From contig QKGI01000109.1 of assembly GCA_003250475.1 (NCBI GenBank), positions 1-40,387 of the forward strand: a DNA stretch of 40,387 bases, written 5' to 3'. The notes under the pieces are model-generated. The model worked only from the letters and a program-made list of their open reading frames with translations, was not told where the DNA came from and made no database searches. Positions 2,065 through 22,939 of this stretch are shown piece after piece. The position numbers were made by a program, and so were the translations under genes. The stretch's first letter is position 1, and every line of letters begins with the position of its first letter. Source of the DNA: Bacteroidota bacterium (lineage in GTDB: Bacteria > Bacteroidota > Bacteroidia > Bacteroidales > VadinHA17).

Positions 2065-2094
2065 TTGAACATTTATGTTTTTTCTTTAATTTAG
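2065..2094 (+). promoter_or_regulatory. Bacteroidota-type promoter of the aromatic operon
   Basis: A TTG (2065-2067) is followed after 19 bp by TAATTTAG (2087-2094), one mismatch from TAnnTTTG at the spacing usual for this phylum. It predicts a transcript start near 2100, only a few bases before the leader-peptide ATG at 2106. Confidence 0.6.
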
Positions 2095-2105
2095 CATCCG
2101 CAATT

Positions 2106-2177
2106 ATGAAGACAATATTCGGACATAACTATTTCTTTTATTACTTCTATTTTCAGGGGAAGGTAGGGGCTGAATAG
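2106..2177 (+). CDS. Phe/Tyr leader peptide of the aromatic amino acid operon
   Basis: This is a 23-codon frame with ATG at 2106 and TAG at 2175. Residues 9-16 read YFFYYFYF: eight consecutive aromatic codons, and nine of 23 residues are Phe or Tyr (five Phe, four Tyr). It lies just upstream of an intrinsic terminator and of genes that make Phe and Tyr, which is the arrangement of amino-acid-dependent transcription attenuation (known for enterobacterial pheA). The peptide is presumably made only so that ribosome progress can sense charged tRNA-Phe and tRNA-Tyr. No Shine-Dalgarno sequence is evident, which is common in this phylum. Confidence 0.85.
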   Translation: MKTIFGHNYFFYYFYFQGKVGAE

Positions 2178-2219
2178 TTATGTCTTAATAGATAAAAGAA
2201 CATTGATTAGAGAGGTCCC
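2122..2219 (+). promoter_or_regulatory. Attenuator: leader stem and candidate antiterminator
   Basis: Positions 2122-2133 (GACATAACTATT) are perfectly complementary to 2173-2184 (AATAGTTATGTC). The first arm runs into Tyr codon 9 and the second covers the leader stop codon. GGGGCT (2166-2171) can pair with GGTCCC (2214-2219), the left arm of the terminator, giving a six-pair antiterminator with two wobbles. Inferred logic: a ribosome stalled on the Tyr/Phe codons covers the first arm and leaves GGGGCT free to block the terminator. A ribosome that reaches the stop codon covers GGGGCT, so termination occurs. Pairings were found by eye. Confidence 0.65.
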
Positions 2220-2243
2220 GCGTAAAACGGGGCCTTTTTTTTT
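2213..2243 (+). terminator. Intrinsic terminator of the attenuator
   Basis: AGGTCCCG (2213-2220) pairs with CGGGGCCT (2228-2235), with one G-U pair, around a 7-nt loop, and a run of T follows. It lies 10 bp before the pheA start, so it can only make sense as a regulated terminator. Confidence 0.9.
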
Positions 2244-2253
2244 ATCATAGAAA

Positions 2254-3138
2254 ATGAAAAAAGAACAGGAGAAAATCAGAGTTGCGATCCAGGGAGTACA
2301 GGGATCATTCCACGAGATTGCTGCAGTTGAATATTTCAGTGGCAAAGAGATAACCACCTATCCCTGCGATACGTTTGACGATTTATTCCGTGTCCTTTCA
2401 GAGGGGGCGGTCGACTATGGAATAGTAGCATTTGAGAATTCTGTCGCTGGGAGCATTCTTCCCAATTACGGGCTGCTGCGAAGGTCTCAGCTACCTGTTA
2501 TTGGAGAGATATACCTTCGTATTATTCAGAACCTGATTGCGCTACCGGGACAGCATCTGTCAGACCTGCACGAGATTCATTCCCACCCGATGGCCATTCA
2601 GCAATGCAATGTTTTCCTTGACAAGATGCGGAAGCGCGGTGTCAAGGTAGTGGAGACAGTGGATACGGCTCTCAGTGCCAGGCTTATAAGCGAAGGCAGG
2701 CAACAGGGGATTGGCGCCATTGCCAGCAGCAGCGCTGCAGCTATCTACAATCTGTCGATAATAAAAAAGGAGATAGAAGCCGATAAGCAGAACTTCACGA
2801 GATTCCTTATCATCAGCGGCAACAGGAACAACACAGATTCGGACAATACTGATGCAGGTTCCGATAAGGCTATGGTGTGTTTCTCCCTGCCTCACAAGGT
2901 AGGTTCACTCTCACAGGTTCTTTCCGTGCTTGCATTCTACCAGATCAGCCTTACCAAGATACAATCACTCCCTATCGTAGGCACTCCATGGGAATACCAG
3001 TTTCATATAGACCTGGTTTACAGCGATTTTAAGCGTTACCGCCTTGCTCTTGACGCCATCAAACCGTTGACGGAAGGGCTCGAGATAATAGGGGAGTTCA
3101 GACAGGGTATAATGCCATACGCTACAGGAAAGAACTAA
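2254..3138 (+). CDS. pheA: Prephenate dehydratase
   Basis: The enzyme converts prephenate to phenylpyruvate in Phe synthesis. The 294-residue chain has the catalytic PDT domain first (about 8-187), with the family TRF motif at 182-184 (FTRFLII). A regulatory ACT domain follows (about 206-285) and carries VGSLSQVL. There is no chorismate mutase domain; that activity is supplied by the fusion gene downstream. The usual ACT ESRP segment reads QSLP here (237-240), so feedback by Phe may differ from the textbook enzyme. It is the first structural gene after the attenuator, and 12 bp separate it from the aminotransferase. Confidence 0.95.
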   Translation: MKKEQEKIRVAIQGVQGSFHEIAAVEYFSGKEITTYPCDTFDDLFRVLSEGAVDYGIVAFENSVAGSILPNYGLLRRSQLPVIGEIYLRIIQNLIALPGQHLSDLHEIHSHPMAIQQCNVFLDKMRKRGVKVVETVDTALSARLISEGRQQGIGAIASSSAAAIYNLSIIKKEIEADKQNFTRFLIISGNRNNTDSDNTDAGSDKAMVCFSLPHKVGSLSQVLSVLAFYQISLTKIQSLPIVGTPWEYQFHIDLVYSDFKRYRLALDAIKPLTEGLEIIGEFRQGIMPYATGKN

Positions 3139-3150
3139 AGCCTTACGACG

Positions 3151-4344
3151 ATGATTACGATTGGCAAGACAACTATCAAAGCTGCAGCACGTACCGGGTT
3201 GGTAAATGAGTATTATTTCTCTGCCAAGCTGGCAGAAATAGCCCGCATGCGCGGTCAGGGCATCGATGTTATAAACCTCGGCATCGGAAGTCCCGATATG
3301 CCTCCTGCAGAAAATGTCAGGGATGAGCTGACGGTCAGCGCTACGGACAGAAATAACCACGGTTACCAGAGTTACAGGGGGATCCCCCGCCTGCGTAACG
3401 CCTTCGCAGACTGGTATGCCAGGTATTTCAGGGTAGACCTTGATCCGGAAACAGAAATACTCCCTCTGATAGGATCCAAGGAGGGCATAATGCATATCAG
3501 CATGGCGTTTCTTGACCCGGGTGATGAAGTCCTTGTGCCCGATCCGGGTTATCCTGCGTACGGTGCAGCAGCCAGGCTTGCAGGCGGGACAGTCCGTTAC
3601 TATGACCTTAAGGAAGAGACCGGCTGGCTCCCTGACATAAAGGCAATAGAGACGGAAGGTGTGGAGAGAGTTAAGATGATGTGGATCAACTACCCGCATA
3701 TGCCTACCGGGACGAAAGCAACACCGGCACTGTTCGGTGAGCTGGCAGACTTTGCACAAAGAAACGGTATCCTCCTATGTAATGATAATCCCTACAGCTT
3801 TATTCTTAATAATGAACACCTGAGCATTCTGTCAGTCCCGGGTGCGGCGGAAACGGCCCTTGAACTAAACTCGCTCAGCAAGTCACACAACATGGCGGGA
3901 TGGAGGATAGGCATGGTAGCCGGTAACAGTGTCTTTATCAATGATATCCTGAAGGTGAAGAGTAATATGGACTCAGGCATGTTCTTGCCCCTGCAGGCTG
4001 CTGCTTCTGTCGCGCTTTCTGCATCCGACAGCTGGTATGAAAGCCTTAATGAGATGTACAAACGGCGCCGAAAGAAAGCTGCTGAAATAATGGATTCGCT
4101 CTCCTGTTCCTTTGATGATGCCCAGGCCGGACTCTTTCTCTGGGGCAGGATTCCCACCCGGTATGCTGATGCTACGGCCCTCACGGAGGAGCTTTTACAT
4201 GAAAGGCATATCTTCATTACCCCGGGTTCTATCTTCGGCAATAATGGTGCAAGGTATATCAGGATCTCCCTGTGCGCCACCGAGGAGATCCTCGATGCCA
4301 CCCTTGCCCGTATACATTCACCGGCTAACTCCAACATTCAGTAA
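3151..4344 (+). CDS. Class I/II aminotransferase, probably for aromatic amino acids
   Basis: This is a PLP-dependent fold type I aminotransferase of 397 residues. The PLP lysine is K244 in SLSKSHNMAGWR. NDNPYS (211-216) holds the PLP-ring Asp and Tyr region, and the carboxylate-binding Arg lies in YIRISLC near residue 372. It is related to the aspartate/LL-diaminopimelate aminotransferase group. Lying between pheA and tyrA with short gaps (12 and 14 bp), it most likely transaminates phenylpyruvate and 4-hydroxyphenylpyruvate, or prephenate to arogenate. The last is an inference from context. The sequence alone does not fix the substrate. Confidence 0.85.
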   Translation: MITIGKTTIKAAARTGLVNEYYFSAKLAEIARMRGQGIDVINLGIGSPDMPPAENVRDELTVSATDRNNHGYQSYRGIPRLRNAFADWYARYFRVDLDPETEILPLIGSKEGIMHISMAFLDPGDEVLVPDPGYPAYGAAARLAGGTVRYYDLKEETGWLPDIKAIETEGVERVKMMWINYPHMPTGTKATPALFGELADFAQRNGILLCNDNPYSFILNNEHLSILSVPGAAETALELNSLSKSHNMAGWRIGMVAGNSVFINDILKVKSNMDSGMFLPLQAAASVALSASDSWYESLNEMYKRRRKKAAEIMDSLSCSFDDAQAGLFLWGRIPTRYADATALTEELLHERHIFITPGSIFGNNGARYIRISLCATEEILDATLARIHSPANSNIQ

Positions 4345-4358
4345 ATAACCAAACAGGT

Positions 4359-5210
4359 ATGTCAGCAAATATCACCATTGTCGGACTGGGCCTTATCGGT
4401 GGCTCACTTGCACGCAGCCTGAGGCTCAACGGTTTCTCAGGCAGGATCACCGGGGTGGAAAGCAATCCTCATCACAGGACTATTGCCATGTACAGGGGAC
4501 TCGCTGACGAGTTCCTCTCACTCGACGAGGCAGTAGAGAAGTCTGATATTATTATCCTTTGTGCCCCGGTTGACATTAACTGCCGTCTTCTTCCCGGTAT
4601 CCTTGATATGATCGGCGGTACGTCGAAGGTTGTCACGGATATGGGATCCACCAAAGCCGATATTGCCTCTGTGGCAGAGAAACACCATGCCCGCGGGAGG
4701 TATGTCTCTGCTCATCCTATGGCAGGAACCGAAAACTCCGGCCCGGCAGCAGCCCTTGACAGGCTCTTCGAGAATAAAGTTGCCATAATATGCGACGCGG
4801 AGCAAAGCGATGATGATGCCATGGAGCTTATCACTGCCCTGCTGCAGTCGCTCAGCATGCGTATTCAATATATGAATTCCCGTGAACATGACGTTCACGT
4901 AGCCTATGTCTCCCATATATCGCATATAACCTCTTTCGCTCTGGCATTATGTGTCCTGGCCAAAGAGAAAGACTCCAGGAACATCATGTCGCTGGCTGCC
5001 GGCGGTTTTGAGAGTACAGTCCGTCTTTCCAAGAGCAAGGCCGAGACATGGGCGCCCATTTTCGCAGGCAATTCAGGACCCATCATTGAAGTTATCGATA
5101 CCTATATAGAAAAAATGAGACTCTTCAGGACACATATAAAGAATGGTGACAGTGATGCCCTGAGAGAATTGATGGTAACAGCGAACGAGATTGGTAATAT
5201 CCTAAAATGA
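4359..5210 (+). CDS. tyrA: Prephenate dehydrogenase
   Basis: The protein oxidatively decarboxylates prephenate (or arogenate) with NAD(P) in Tyr synthesis. It is 283 residues long, with a Rossmann motif GLGLIGGSLARS at 9-20 and the catalytic His (H119) in SAHPMAGTE. The all-alpha C-terminal domain carries HVAYVSHISH (about 180-189). It has neither a mutase nor an ACT domain, so Tyr feedback is not obvious in the protein. The Tyr codons in the leader peptide would supply that control instead. It sits 15 bp before the next gene. Confidence 0.93.
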   Translation: MSANITIVGLGLIGGSLARSLRLNGFSGRITGVESNPHHRTIAMYRGLADEFLSLDEAVEKSDIIILCAPVDINCRLLPGILDMIGGTSKVVTDMGSTKADIASVAEKHHARGRYVSAHPMAGTENSGPAAALDRLFENKVAIICDAEQSDDDAMELITALLQSLSMRIQYMNSREHDVHVAYVSHISHITSFALALCVLAKEKDSRNIMSLAAGGFESTVRLSKSKAETWAPIFAGNSGPIIEVIDTYIEKMRLFRTHIKNGDSDALRELMVTANEIGNILK

Positions 5211-5225
5211 AACAAACAGAGAATC

Positions 5226-6341
5226 ATGAATGCACAGAACACAGCTATAAGGACAAACAGGTTAAACATCTCACCGATCGAAGAGTGGTCTGTATATAAA
5301 CAGCGACCCCTGGTGATAGCAGGCCCCTGCAGTGCTGAGAGTGAGGAGCAGGTGATGAGTACGGCTGCTGCCATTGCAGCATCAGGCCGTGTCGACCTCT
5401 TCAGGGCGGGTATCTGGAAGCCACGCACACGTCCGGACCAGTTTGAAGGTGTCGGCGCCATAGGTCTTAAATGGCTCAGGCAGGTGAAGGAGGAGTATGG
5501 TTTGCCCGTCTCGGTGGAGGTGGCCACGGAGAAGCATGTTTATGAGGCGCTGAAACACGGGCTTGACGCTGTATGGATCGGAGCCCGTACCAGCGTCAAC
5601 CCATTTGCAATGAACGAGATAGCCTCTGCTCTCAGAGGCTGCGACGTGATGGTATTCGTCAAGAACCCGGTAAATCCTGATCTTGAACTGTGGCTTGGTG
5701 CCCTGGAGAGAATAAGCAAAGCCGGGATCACAAGACTGGCTGCCATCCACCGTGGTTTCTCCACATGGGAGAAGTCAGCATTCCGCAACCAGCCACGGTG
5801 GCAGATTGCCGTGGAACTGCGCCAGCGCATACCTGATCTGGGCATGATACTTGACCCGAGCCATATGGGCGGTAACAAATCTTTCATCACAGACCTGTCA
5901 CAGAAAGCGATGGACCTGAATTATGACGGCCTGATGATAGAGACACATATCGATCCTGCTTCGGCACTGAGTGACAAAAAACAACAGGTGACCCCGGCAG
6001 AGCTGATGGCATTGCTTGACAGGCTCATTTTCCGGTCACCGACATCCAATGACCCCGAATACCTTGAGACCATTGAGGATCTCAGGAATCAGATTGATAT
6101 CTATGACAATCTCCTTCTTGACATCCTGGAGAGCCGTATGCAGGTGGCTGAGACAATCGGAAGGTTCAAGAAAGAACATAATATCACCATTCTTCAGAGC
6201 AACAGGTGGAAGGAGGTGAAGGATAATGCAGTTGATAAAGGTGTAAGGAAAGGGCTGACGCCCGAATTTGTGAATATAATCCTCGAGGCTATTCATCAGG
6301 AATCGATCACACACCAGATGAATGTGATGAAAGAAGAATAA
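5226..6341 (+). CDS. Bifunctional DAHP synthase / type II chorismate mutase
   Basis: This fusion joins the first step of the shikimate pathway (PEP plus erythrose 4-phosphate to DAHP) to the chorismate-to-prephenate branch step. Residues about 20-265 form a KDO8P-synthase-like (type I beta) DAHP synthase, with the PEP-site GPCSAES at 33-39 and later LDPSHMGGNKS. Residues about 278-365 are an AroQ-type helical mutase (EDLRNQIDIYDNLLLDIL, then RMQVAETIGRFKK). Such fusions are common in Bacteroidota, and the mutase domain often lets prephenate or chorismate inhibit the synthase. It is the fourth gene of the operon. Confidence 0.93.
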   Translation: MNAQNTAIRTNRLNISPIEEWSVYKQRPLVIAGPCSAESEEQVMSTAAAIAASGRVDLFRAGIWKPRTRPDQFEGVGAIGLKWLRQVKEEYGLPVSVEVATEKHVYEALKHGLDAVWIGARTSVNPFAMNEIASALRGCDVMVFVKNPVNPDLELWLGALERISKAGITRLAAIHRGFSTWEKSAFRNQPRWQIAVELRQRIPDLGMILDPSHMGGNKSFITDLSQKAMDLNYDGLMIETHIDPASALSDKKQQVTPAELMALLDRLIFRSPTSNDPEYLETIEDLRNQIDIYDNLLLDILESRMQVAETIGRFKKEHNITILQSNRWKEVKDNAVDKGVRKGLTPEFVNIILEAIHQESITHQMNVMKEE

Positions 6342-6383: not shown

Positions 6384-7634
6384 ATGAACATTACCGTACA
6401 TCCTTCGGTCATTAAGGGAAGTGTTGATGCTCCCCCAAGCAAGAGTCTTACTCAGAGGGCTATTGCTGCGGGCCTTCTGGCACCGGGGACTACCGTGATT
6501 CATAGTCCTTCCTTTTGCAATGATTCACTGGCAGCGCTGGAGATGGCCGAAGCCCTGGGAGCTTTCACCTCAAAGAACGAAAGCTCGTTTACCGTGGAAG
6601 CCGGAAACAGGCCGGATTATCCCGTGACGCTTGTGTGCGGTGAATCCGGCCTCGCGTTGCGTATGTTCTCGCCTGTTGCGGCACTGCTCTCAGGCAATGT
6701 AACCCTCACGGGAGAGGGATCACTACTGTCCAGGCCTGTGGGTATGATCACAGACGCTCTTAGTCAGCTGGGTGTAAAAGTGTGGTCAAATAACGGTTTG
6801 CTGCCGGTAAGAATAAGCGGTAAACTGTCAGGAGGGAGGGCAGTTATAGACGGCTCTTCAGGATCACAGCTGCTGACAGGATTGTTGATGGCATTGCCTC
6901 TGGCTGAGTCAGACAGCTTCATAGAGGTTCTCAACTTACGGAGCACACCTTATATTAATCTTACGCTGGAGCTTCTGTCAGCCTTTGGCATAGAAGTTCA
7001 TAATGAGCATTTCAGGTACTTCACCATCCCTGGCAGACAATCTTATTCAGCCCGTGAATACACAGTTGAAGGAGACTGGAGTGGAGCGGCGTTTCTTCTT
7101 GTCTCCGGGGCCGTTGGTGGCCAGGCGGTCGTTCACAATCTGAATTCCGGGAGCGCTCAGGCAGACAGGGCTGTCATGCAGGTCCTTAAAGATGCGGGGT
7201 GCCTGGTTGCCGAAAGCAACGGTGCTGTCACTGCATCACGGTCGAATCTTAAAGCCTTTGATTTTGACGCTACCGACGCGCCCGATCTCTTCCCGCCGCT
7301 GGCTGCCCTGGCATCATATTGTGACGGAACAAGCATTATCAGTGGGGCGGGCAGGCTGAGACACAAGGAGAGTGACAGGGGAGAAGCGATAATGGATGTT
7401 CTTGCAGCAATGAACATAAGATCATATATCAGGGATGATGAGATGCTGATAGAAGGCGGAAGCGTCAGAGGGGCTGTCGTCTCATCTCATAACGACCACC
7501 GCATCGCAATGATGGCAGCTGTCATGGCCCTGGGAGCAGGACAGCCGGTGACAATAACAGGTGCCGAGGCCGTAGCGAAGTCATTCCCGGAGTTCTTCAG
7601 TACCATGGCTGATCTCGGCACCAGGATCCAATAA
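6384..7634 (+). CDS. aroA: 3-phosphoshikimate 1-carboxyvinyltransferase (EPSP synthase)
   Basis: The enzyme joins shikimate 3-phosphate and PEP to EPSP. It is 416 residues long. SKSLTQRA (19-26) is the N-terminal substrate motif, DFDATDAPDLFPPLAAL lies near 290-306, and NDHRIAMMAA is near the C-terminus. The loop equivalent to E. coli GNAGTAMRP reads GESGLALRM (86-94), so the positions matching T97 and P101 are Leu and Met. It closes the aromatic operon, 42 bp after the fusion gene, and converges on the ABC permease gene 22 bp away. Confidence 0.93.
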   Translation: MNITVHPSVIKGSVDAPPSKSLTQRAIAAGLLAPGTTVIHSPSFCNDSLAALEMAEALGAFTSKNESSFTVEAGNRPDYPVTLVCGESGLALRMFSPVAALLSGNVTLTGEGSLLSRPVGMITDALSQLGVKVWSNNGLLPVRISGKLSGGRAVIDGSSGSQLLTGLLMALPLAESDSFIEVLNLRSTPYINLTLELLSAFGIEVHNEHFRYFTIPGRQSYSAREYTVEGDWSGAAFLLVSGAVGGQAVVHNLNSGSAQADRAVMQVLKDAGCLVAESNGAVTASRSNLKAFDFDATDAPDLFPPLAALASYCDGTSIISGAGRLRHKESDRGEAIMDVLAAMNIRSYIRDDEMLIEGGSVRGAVVSSHNDHRIAMMAAVMALGAGQPVTITGAEAVAKSFPEFFSTMADLGTRIQ

Positions 7635-22716: not shown

Positions 22717-22788
22717 GCCTCCTTAGCTCAGTGGTAGAGCAGCTCACTCGTAATGAGCAGGTCGTGGGTTCAACTCCCATGGGAGGCT
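22717..22788 (+). tRNA. tRNA-Thr (anticodon CGU)
   Basis: A full cloverleaf is visible. The acceptor stem is GCCTCCT/GGGAGGC, the D arm GCTC...GAGC, and the anticodon stem GCTCA/TGAGC encloses loop CTCGTAA. The T arm is GTGGG TTCAACT CCCAT. The anticodon CGU reads ACG (Thr). CCA is not encoded. Confidence 0.96.
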
Positions 22789-22867: not shown

Positions 22868-22939
22868 GCGGGAGTAGCTCAGGGGTAGAGCATCAGCTTC
22901 CCAAGCTGAGGGCCGAGGGTTCGAATCCCTTTTCCCGCT
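22868..22939 (+). tRNA. tRNA-Gly (anticodon CCC)
   Basis: A full cloverleaf is visible. The acceptor stem is GCGGGAG/TTCCCGC, the anticodon stem TCAGC/GCTGA encloses loop TTCCCAA, and the T arm is GAGGG TTCGAAT CCCTT. The anticodon CCC reads GGG (Gly). CCA is not encoded. It is probably co-transcribed with tRNA-Thr, 79 bp upstream. Confidence 0.96.

Follow-up and report, generated by a model that had tools for sequence, protein, structure and literature searches.

Attenuation ahead of pheA has previously been described for the E. coli pheL-pheA leader (Rfam Phe_leader, RF01859), where a leader peptide with control codons, a protector, an antiterminator and a terminator precede the gene. The locus presented here, from a Bacteroidota contig, shares this arrangement, and with pheL as a yardstick in the same footprint model its computed dependence on ribosome position is similar. 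Two differences should be noted: the E. coli leader lacks Tyr, whereas the leader studied here mixes Tyr and Phe codons in front of an operon that makes both, and the E. coli antiterminator holds at equilibrium, whereas this one does not. In the Bacteroidetes, the Bacteroid-trp leader RNA (RF01692; PMC2864571) is according to Rfam a tryptophan peptide leader, whereas the present element is of the Tyr/Phe type. Neither model recovers it: Phe_leader scores 24.2 bits in the window against a cut-off of 55 and has no match in 20 relatives, while Bacteroid-trp scores 23.5 bits against a cut-off of 49 and yields none in the window's own genome. More generally, no Rfam family reaches its gathering score over the leader, be it that of the window or of any of 20 relatives, and no T-box riboswitch appears among the gathering hits in the window or among its 22 matches up to E 10. 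An attenuation survey by Vitreschak and coworkers from 2004 reportedly mentions Bacteroidetes/Chlorobi.

The gene and phylum are the same in Flavobacterium psychrophilum and other Flavobacteriaceae, where a structured 5' element without an Rfam hit was noted before pheA by authors who see strong clues for leader-peptide attenuation ahead of amino-acid operons (PMC9723704); the accessible text of that paper gives no codon run, pheA mechanism or wider distribution. Two candidate uORFs containing Phe and Tyr have been placed near shikimate genes (PMC6429828), in a position like the one found here, in a study whose accessible part covers five genomes, none of them from Bacteroidota. As for serial arrangements, the Salmonella mgtCBR tandem attenuators hold two short ORFs in one leader, which according to the accessible text are expected to affect stem-loops (PMC3641672); genes and signals are other ones there, and the tandem leaders described below have a separate aromatic run and terminator for each ORF. 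The mechanism is hence already known, and the structured element before pheA was noted earlier in Flavobacteriaceae, as far as the accessible text of PMC9723704 goes. In the literature searched, with most subscription papers and supplements outside the search, no description was found of the class-wide family, of codon exchange or of the tandem form. The original prediction, which called the element notable for its phylum and left open whether it had been described, is to be revised on both counts: it is not the curiosity of one genome, being class-wide, and it had been noticed before only in part, again judging from the accessible text of PMC9723704.

The window, i.e. the whole stretch of 40,387 nucleotides analyzed (contig QKGI01000109.1), contains the features collected in Table 1.

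Table 1. Features of the leader region and the operon behind it, in positions of the window.
Feature	Position	Strand	Evidence
Candidate -33 element TTG	2065-2067	+	Sequence; 19 nt 5' of the -7 box
Candidate -7 box TAATTTAG, TAnnTTTG type	2087-2094	+	11 nt 5' of the leader ATG
Leader peptide ORF, 23 codons, MKTIFGHNYFFYYFYFQGKVGAE*	2106-2177	+	Sequence; counterparts in relatives
Region 1 of the protector (1:2) hairpin	2122-2133	+	12/12 Watson-Crick pairs with 2173-2184
Control codons Tyr-Phe-Phe-Tyr-Tyr-Phe-Tyr-Phe (YFFYYFYF)	2130-2153	+	Sequence; longest TWY run of its own genome
Antiterminator strand GGGGCT	2166-2171	+	Pairs with GGTCCC 2214-2219: 6 pairs, 2 of them G-U
Region 2 of the protector hairpin, spanning the stop codon	2173-2184	+	Pairs with 2122-2133
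Intrinsic terminator hairpin GAGGTCCCG/CGGGGCCTT, then T's	2212-2236	+	Sequence
Terminator T tract, 9 T's	2235-2243	+	Sequence; ends 10 nt 5' of the pheA start (2254)
pheA, prephenate dehydratase	2254-3138	+	Pfam PDT 7e-54
Class I/II aminotransferase (AAT)	3151-4344	+	Pfam Aminotran_1_2 1.5e-61
tyrA, prephenate dehydrogenase	4359-5210	+	Pfam PDH_N 1e-32, PDH_C 2e-21
DAHP synthase fused to chorismate mutase	5226-6341	+	Pfam DAHP_synth_1 2.6e-34, CM_2 4e-20
aroA, EPSP synthase	6384-7634	+	Pfam EPSP_synthase 1.6e-85

The Pfam content of the five genes indicates an operon that serves Phe and Tyr both. The closest relatives of its pheA are found in MAGs named Bacteroidales. Upstream, the ORFs of at least 100 aa between 219 and 1665 all lie on the - strand. 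Elsewhere, the window shows two short tandem arrays with 8-base units CTTGCAGT and GAAGGTCA (15-51 and 86-123), and two tRNA genes lie near each other on the + strand (22717-22788 and 22868-22939). A repeat-rich stretch is also present 5' of an aminotransferase gene in L283.

The 23-codon frame with its eight aromatic codons, predicted originally, is present, and so is a Bacteroidota-type promoter candidate ahead of it. Promoters of this phylum have a -33/-7 arrangement, and TAATTTAG is the sole -7-like box (TA..TTTG, TA..TTAG or TA..TTTA) across 1982-2253. The G+C content over 1661-2253 is 34%. TWY runs of six codons occur at two sites of the 3.47 Mb genome and eight codons are reached only by the leader run; the reversed control pattern, however, matches 14 times at six units and twice at seven, so that the aromatic run on its own is the weaker evidence, and the case for a real leader is made by its conservation in relatives. 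Aromatic runs were likewise tried as a genome-wide marker and given up, since TWYx7 is found in 32 of 36 genomes at about the frequency of the reversed control (among the matches listed), and two CAYx5 runs of the own genome, considered as histidine leaders, were set aside as unlike such leaders, one of them lying in a proline-rich coding frame.

The window holds a product-codon ORF upstream, an intrinsic terminator before the first gene and a protector hairpin, which is strong in the folding model (0.97). Both the terminator 10 bp ahead of pheA and the perfect 12-bp pairing of the Tyr/Phe region with the stop-codon region had been anticipated, and the latter is also kept in 8 relatives. The leader as a whole is far more stably folded than its shuffles (z = -4.84, with 0 of 200 equally stable), and the antiterminator strand of the window, taken singly, is no better than in shuffles (p = 0.14).

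An alignment of the window with these 8 relatives keeps the TANTTT box (9/9, with its final G in 8/9), the ATG, the run, a GGGRCY strand and the terminator in all nine sequences. The 1:2 and antiterminator helices together comprise 17 pairs, for which 97.4% of the aligned cells are paired, against 30-44% when the partner is slid by 1-3 columns. Separately, the 1:2 helix has 96% of its cells paired and two pairs changed on both sides, and the antiterminator helix 100% and one such pair; each of these three double changes occurs in one sequence, the window, as judged by alignment position. The 8 terminator pairs are 98.6% formed, and since they are mostly invariant and not above shuffles they provide little covariation evidence. 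Within the run, Phe and Tyr are swapped freely among the close relatives. Both the aromatic peptide and the stems, whose absence from relatives had been named beforehand as the finding that would speak against the element, are kept, and sequence and comparison establish these parts and their conservation.

To follow the element further, a leader was defined as a short ORF, no more than 450 nt upstream, in which a stretch of 8 codons encodes 6 or more aromatic residues, with a looser level of at least 5 of 8. Of 80 pheA loci sampled for the similarity of their PheA, regardless of any leader, 73 reach the stricter level against 9 of 790 shuffles, and 48 reach 7 of 8, against 1 of 790. When all samples, the window among them, are pooled and freed of duplicates, the stricter level is reached by 137 of 194 pheA upstreams; a terminator follows in 130 of these 137, at least two Phe and at least two Tyr are found in 134 and an ATG start also in 134. 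The counts given on 132, 138 or 139 leaders, on 196 upstreams and for the Tyr-share set still contain up to three duplicates. Peptide length has a median of 24 residues.

In the phylum sample, 34 of 52 upstreams from the window's class pass at 6 of 8 or more and 49 of 52 at 5 of 8 or more, the corresponding shuffle counts, made from all 89 upstreams, being 13/890 and 99/890. These 52 come from 56 genomes with a pheA match, the four left out being low-scoring and without a listed place. Other classes give 6 of 37 at the looser level, four of them convincing, with a PheA nearer the class type, and two weak; the 37 were read from about 158 matches, within 900 nt, so leaders of genes with long N-terminal extensions may escape. 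Among Bacteroidales, 27 of the best-scoring 28 of 40 matches have a leader at the looser level and the remaining one (L215) begins inside pheA; at another locus (L045) just 36 nt of upstream sequence are available. A FastTree phylogeny of 135 PheA proteins shows three changes in the presence of a leader, and because this tree lacks 60 upstream-only loci, which include most of the leaderless ones, inheritance of the leader together with pheA is supported within the class only. Other RNA elements near pheA loci are a Flavo-1 RNA (L130, 554-633, - strand) and a cobalamin riboswitch (L028, 712-900, - strand).

The distance between promoter-like box and leader is short in many loci. A TA..TT[TA]G box ends 4-11 nt 5' of the leader ATG in 50 of 138 cases, where 1.9 are expected (49/136 after duplicate removal), and 15-30 nt 5' of it in 44 of 138, where 3.8 are expected. 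If such boxes sit about 3-4 nt ahead of the transcription start, a third of the leaders would be nearly leaderless. As reported in the accessible parts of the respective sources, about 3.7% of the 5' UTRs of B. thetaiotaomicron are shorter than 10 nt, and leaderless mRNAs make up 5.5% in F. psychrophilum (PMC9723704).

Concerning the region between run and gene, a terminator follows the aromatic run in 132 of 139 leaders, compared with 5 of 278 shuffles, and the median distance from the beginning of its T tract to the pheA match downstream is 38 nt (10-90%: 16-129). This bears on translational control, i.e. on the possibility that leader structures or reinitiation determine how accessible the pheA start is. 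In the window, hairpin and T tract end just 10 nt before the start codon, which would suit such a role; nevertheless, they have the form of an intrinsic terminator, as they do after 132 of 139 runs, and the distance to pheA is too variable to mask one start site, which makes control at the level of translation very unlikely.

Transcription attenuation involves an antiterminator that competes with the terminator, and the comparison shows a candidate strand for it. In 111 of 132 loci the terminator 5' arm has a better partner 3' of the run than in shuffles (p <= 0.05). The complementary strand begins a median of 11 nt past the last aromatic codon (10-90%: 7-16; shuffles 2-43), and its placement is tighter relative to the run (IQR 5.25) than relative to the stop codon (IQR 11.25). 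Its start coincides approximately with the leading edge of a ribosome whose A site holds the last control codon, assuming a footprint of 12 nt downstream of the first base of the A-site codon, a value which was varied for the window.

Under this footprint model, with RNA ending at the terminator 5' arm, mean antiterminator pairing over the 132 loci is about 0.72 while the ribosome sits within the run and 0.65 at the last aromatic codon, and falls to 0.48, 0.30, 0.14 and 0.09 from one to four codons past the run. For the window, with RNA ending in the terminator 5' arm or loop, mean pairing is 0.74-0.98 over the Tyr codons in 30/30 settings, 0.91-0.99 over the Phe codons except the last, for which it ranges from 0.07 to 0.99, and 0.00 without a ribosome or from the second codon past the run, again in 30/30 settings. 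The profile suggests that stalling on Tyr and on Phe codons alike would turn the operon on. With the ribosome on codons 3-8, 5' of the run, the modelled switch opens too (0.55-0.90), and hence specificity would rest on codon choice and not on the fold.

It should be noted that the outcome depends on how much RNA has been made. When the full terminator hairpin is allowed, the terminator of the window wins, with 0.99, at every ribosome position, and equilibrium folding brings antiterminator pairing to 0.5 upon stalling in just 28 of 132 loci. Since the antiterminator of the window loses at equilibrium, the switch would have to act kinetically, during RNA synthesis. Folding with part of the leader blocked, along the lines that had been proposed, gives two answers, the antiterminator forming in unfinished RNA and the terminator prevailing once complete; in the same way, the GGGGCT/GGTCCC pairing foreseen as opposing the terminator exists and is kept, and in the model it wins only before the terminator 3' arm is made. 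In unfinished RNA free of ribosomes antiterminator pairing averages 0.57 across loci and is below 0.2 in only 20 of 132, a strong protector being a minority feature. In loci without one, termination would be due mainly to the ribosome masking the RNA as it passes.

On these grounds we regard the element as very probably a transcription attenuator of the pheL/trpL type, ribosome-mediated and responsive to both charged tRNA-Tyr and charged tRNA-Phe. Transcription would begin just 5' of the leader ATG and a ribosome would load at once. With ample Tyr and Phe, it would clear the eight codons and cover GGGGCT (2166-2171) and the stop region, the terminator (2212-2243) would form and transcription would end before pheA. 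If charged tRNA-Tyr or tRNA-Phe is scarce, the ribosome would stall on a Tyr or Phe codon and cover region 1 (2122-2133) or its loop, thereby blocking the 1:2 hairpin, and the GGGGCT ahead of it could pair with the terminator 5' arm (2214-2219) as this arm emerges, with read-through into pheA, AAT, tyrA, DAHP synthase and aroA as the predicted result. In the absence of a ribosome the 1:2 hairpin would form and termination would be restored.

The control codons also vary with the genes that follow. Solitary pheA, taken as a pheA whose flank holds none of the genes for the aminotransferase, prephenate dehydrogenase (tyrA) or DAHP synthase, has a median Tyr share of the run of 0.00 (8 leaders from four genera). 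The median is 0.44 where other genes of the pathway accompany pheA (117 leaders), and 0.82 for tyrA operons of genomes without detected pheA, as judged on draft genomes (10 leaders from ten families, including TYYYYYQ and TYYYNYY). Compared with the 117, p is 2e-6 for solitary pheA and 1e-5 for the tyrA operons, relatedness being uncorrected. Peptides for the Tyr share were chosen by eye, and in the tyrA leader of G302 the first two Tyr fell outside the run as the rule delimits it. In genomes where pheA lies elsewhere, the 8 tyrA operons have mixed leaders with a Tyr share of 0.52 (p = 0.30 against the combined operons), and in the two of these that were followed far enough downstream (G282 and G358) a DAHP synthase, serving both amino acids, is seen behind tyrA. 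The original prediction that mixed Phe and Tyr codons fit an operon making both finds its strongest support in this tracking of operon content, which is read directly from the compared genomes.

The solitary loci emerged already in the first samples, with at most one Tyr in the run in 4 of 4 solitary-pheA leaders against 1 of 127 others, the single exception (L204) having a second leader that contains Tyr. These four loci are scattered over the PheA tree, and the 4 independent pairs all agree (p = 0.125), too few for significance. The follow-up used 294 Bacteroidales genomes, from which split and solitary operons were hand-picked as 38 stretches. Apparently solitary pheA has a leader in 8 of 14 genomes (G302, G553, G487, G358, G520, G282, G292 and G482), those of G292 and G482 failing the terminator filter because of interrupted T tracts, and no leader was seen upstream of it in the other 6 (G398, G549, G505, G428, G334 and G416), the solitary call for G416 resting on about 0.8 kb downstream. 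At L050 pheA stands alone merely because the contig ends. As for operons led by tyrA, 18 have a leader and one (G272) lacks it; the upstream sequence is too short in G281, G553 and G402, the last showing a partial TYYYY at the contig edge.

Serial arrangement is the second source of diversity. Two leader-plus-terminator units stand in series before pheA at 8 of 196 loci other than the window and in 8 of the 18 tyrA-led leaders, and the same test finds a single module in the window. Loci of pheA or tyrA operons showing two aromatic modules in series are L100, L109, L110, L151, L198, L204, L207 and L218, and L256, L274, L281 and L289-L293.

The codon pattern also helps to judge whether the ribosome could be arrested by the nascent chain instead, in the manner of TnaC and ErmCL, with the aromatic peptide, perhaps together with a metabolite, jamming the ribosome and setting the RNA fold. 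Aromatic-rich peptides are indeed kept, and of similar length (median 24 residues), but Phe and Tyr exchange freely and runs become Phe-only or Tyr-only according to the operon, a freedom hardly compatible with a specific arrest sequence. Moreover, the conserved ends of the peptide, GTE and SRD, have their codons in or next to the antiterminator strand, and therefore RNA pairing can explain their conservation. On balance, the pattern favours the codons over the shape of the peptide as the sensor, and nascent-chain arrest appears improbable, on a par with translational control. Least credible of all is a chance ORF in an AT-rich untranslated region whose terminator merely closes an upstream transcript, because, although many TWY runs occur in AT-rich relatives, at about the frequency of the control pattern, and 1661-2253 has 34% G+C, leaders are found at 73 of 80 loci against 9 of 790 shuffles, terminators at 132 of 139 against 5 of 278 and spacing is fixed, while the ORFs of at least 100 aa at 219-1665 lie on the - strand.

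For the attenuator as a family, we lean towards an ancestral Bacteroidia element that has been re-addressed by codon exchange, becoming Phe-only before solitary pheA, Tyr-rich to Tyr-only in tyrA operons of genomes without detectable pheA, and mixed where both amino acids are made. It would be sometimes doubled in series and often have a near-leaderless start; in this phylum, which has no Shine-Dalgarno sites, such a start would link the first ribosome to the polymerase. If this holds, leader codons would tell which amino acids an operon answers to, making regulation readable in uncultured genomes across the class, and transcription and translation would be tightly coupled at the 5' end in Bacteroidia, which the leaders would make directly testable. 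The exchange of Phe, Tyr and mixed codons among relatives would amount to a natural experiment on how attenuator specificity changes, and near-leaderless starts and serial modules raise the question of how ribosome and polymerase are synchronized without Shine-Dalgarno sites.

A final point of notice concerns some individual runs and loci. Among tyrA-led leaders, 10 of 26 have Trp codons within the run, compared with 11 of 117 combined ones, which hints at sensing of all three aromatic amino acids. In family f111 (L267, L268 and L269) an apparently solitary pheA has no aromatic leader, and tyrA has a mixed F/Y/W leader there. The solitary pheA of G302 (L259) has a Phe-only leader and is followed by genes which we take to be involved in branched-chain amino acid synthesis.
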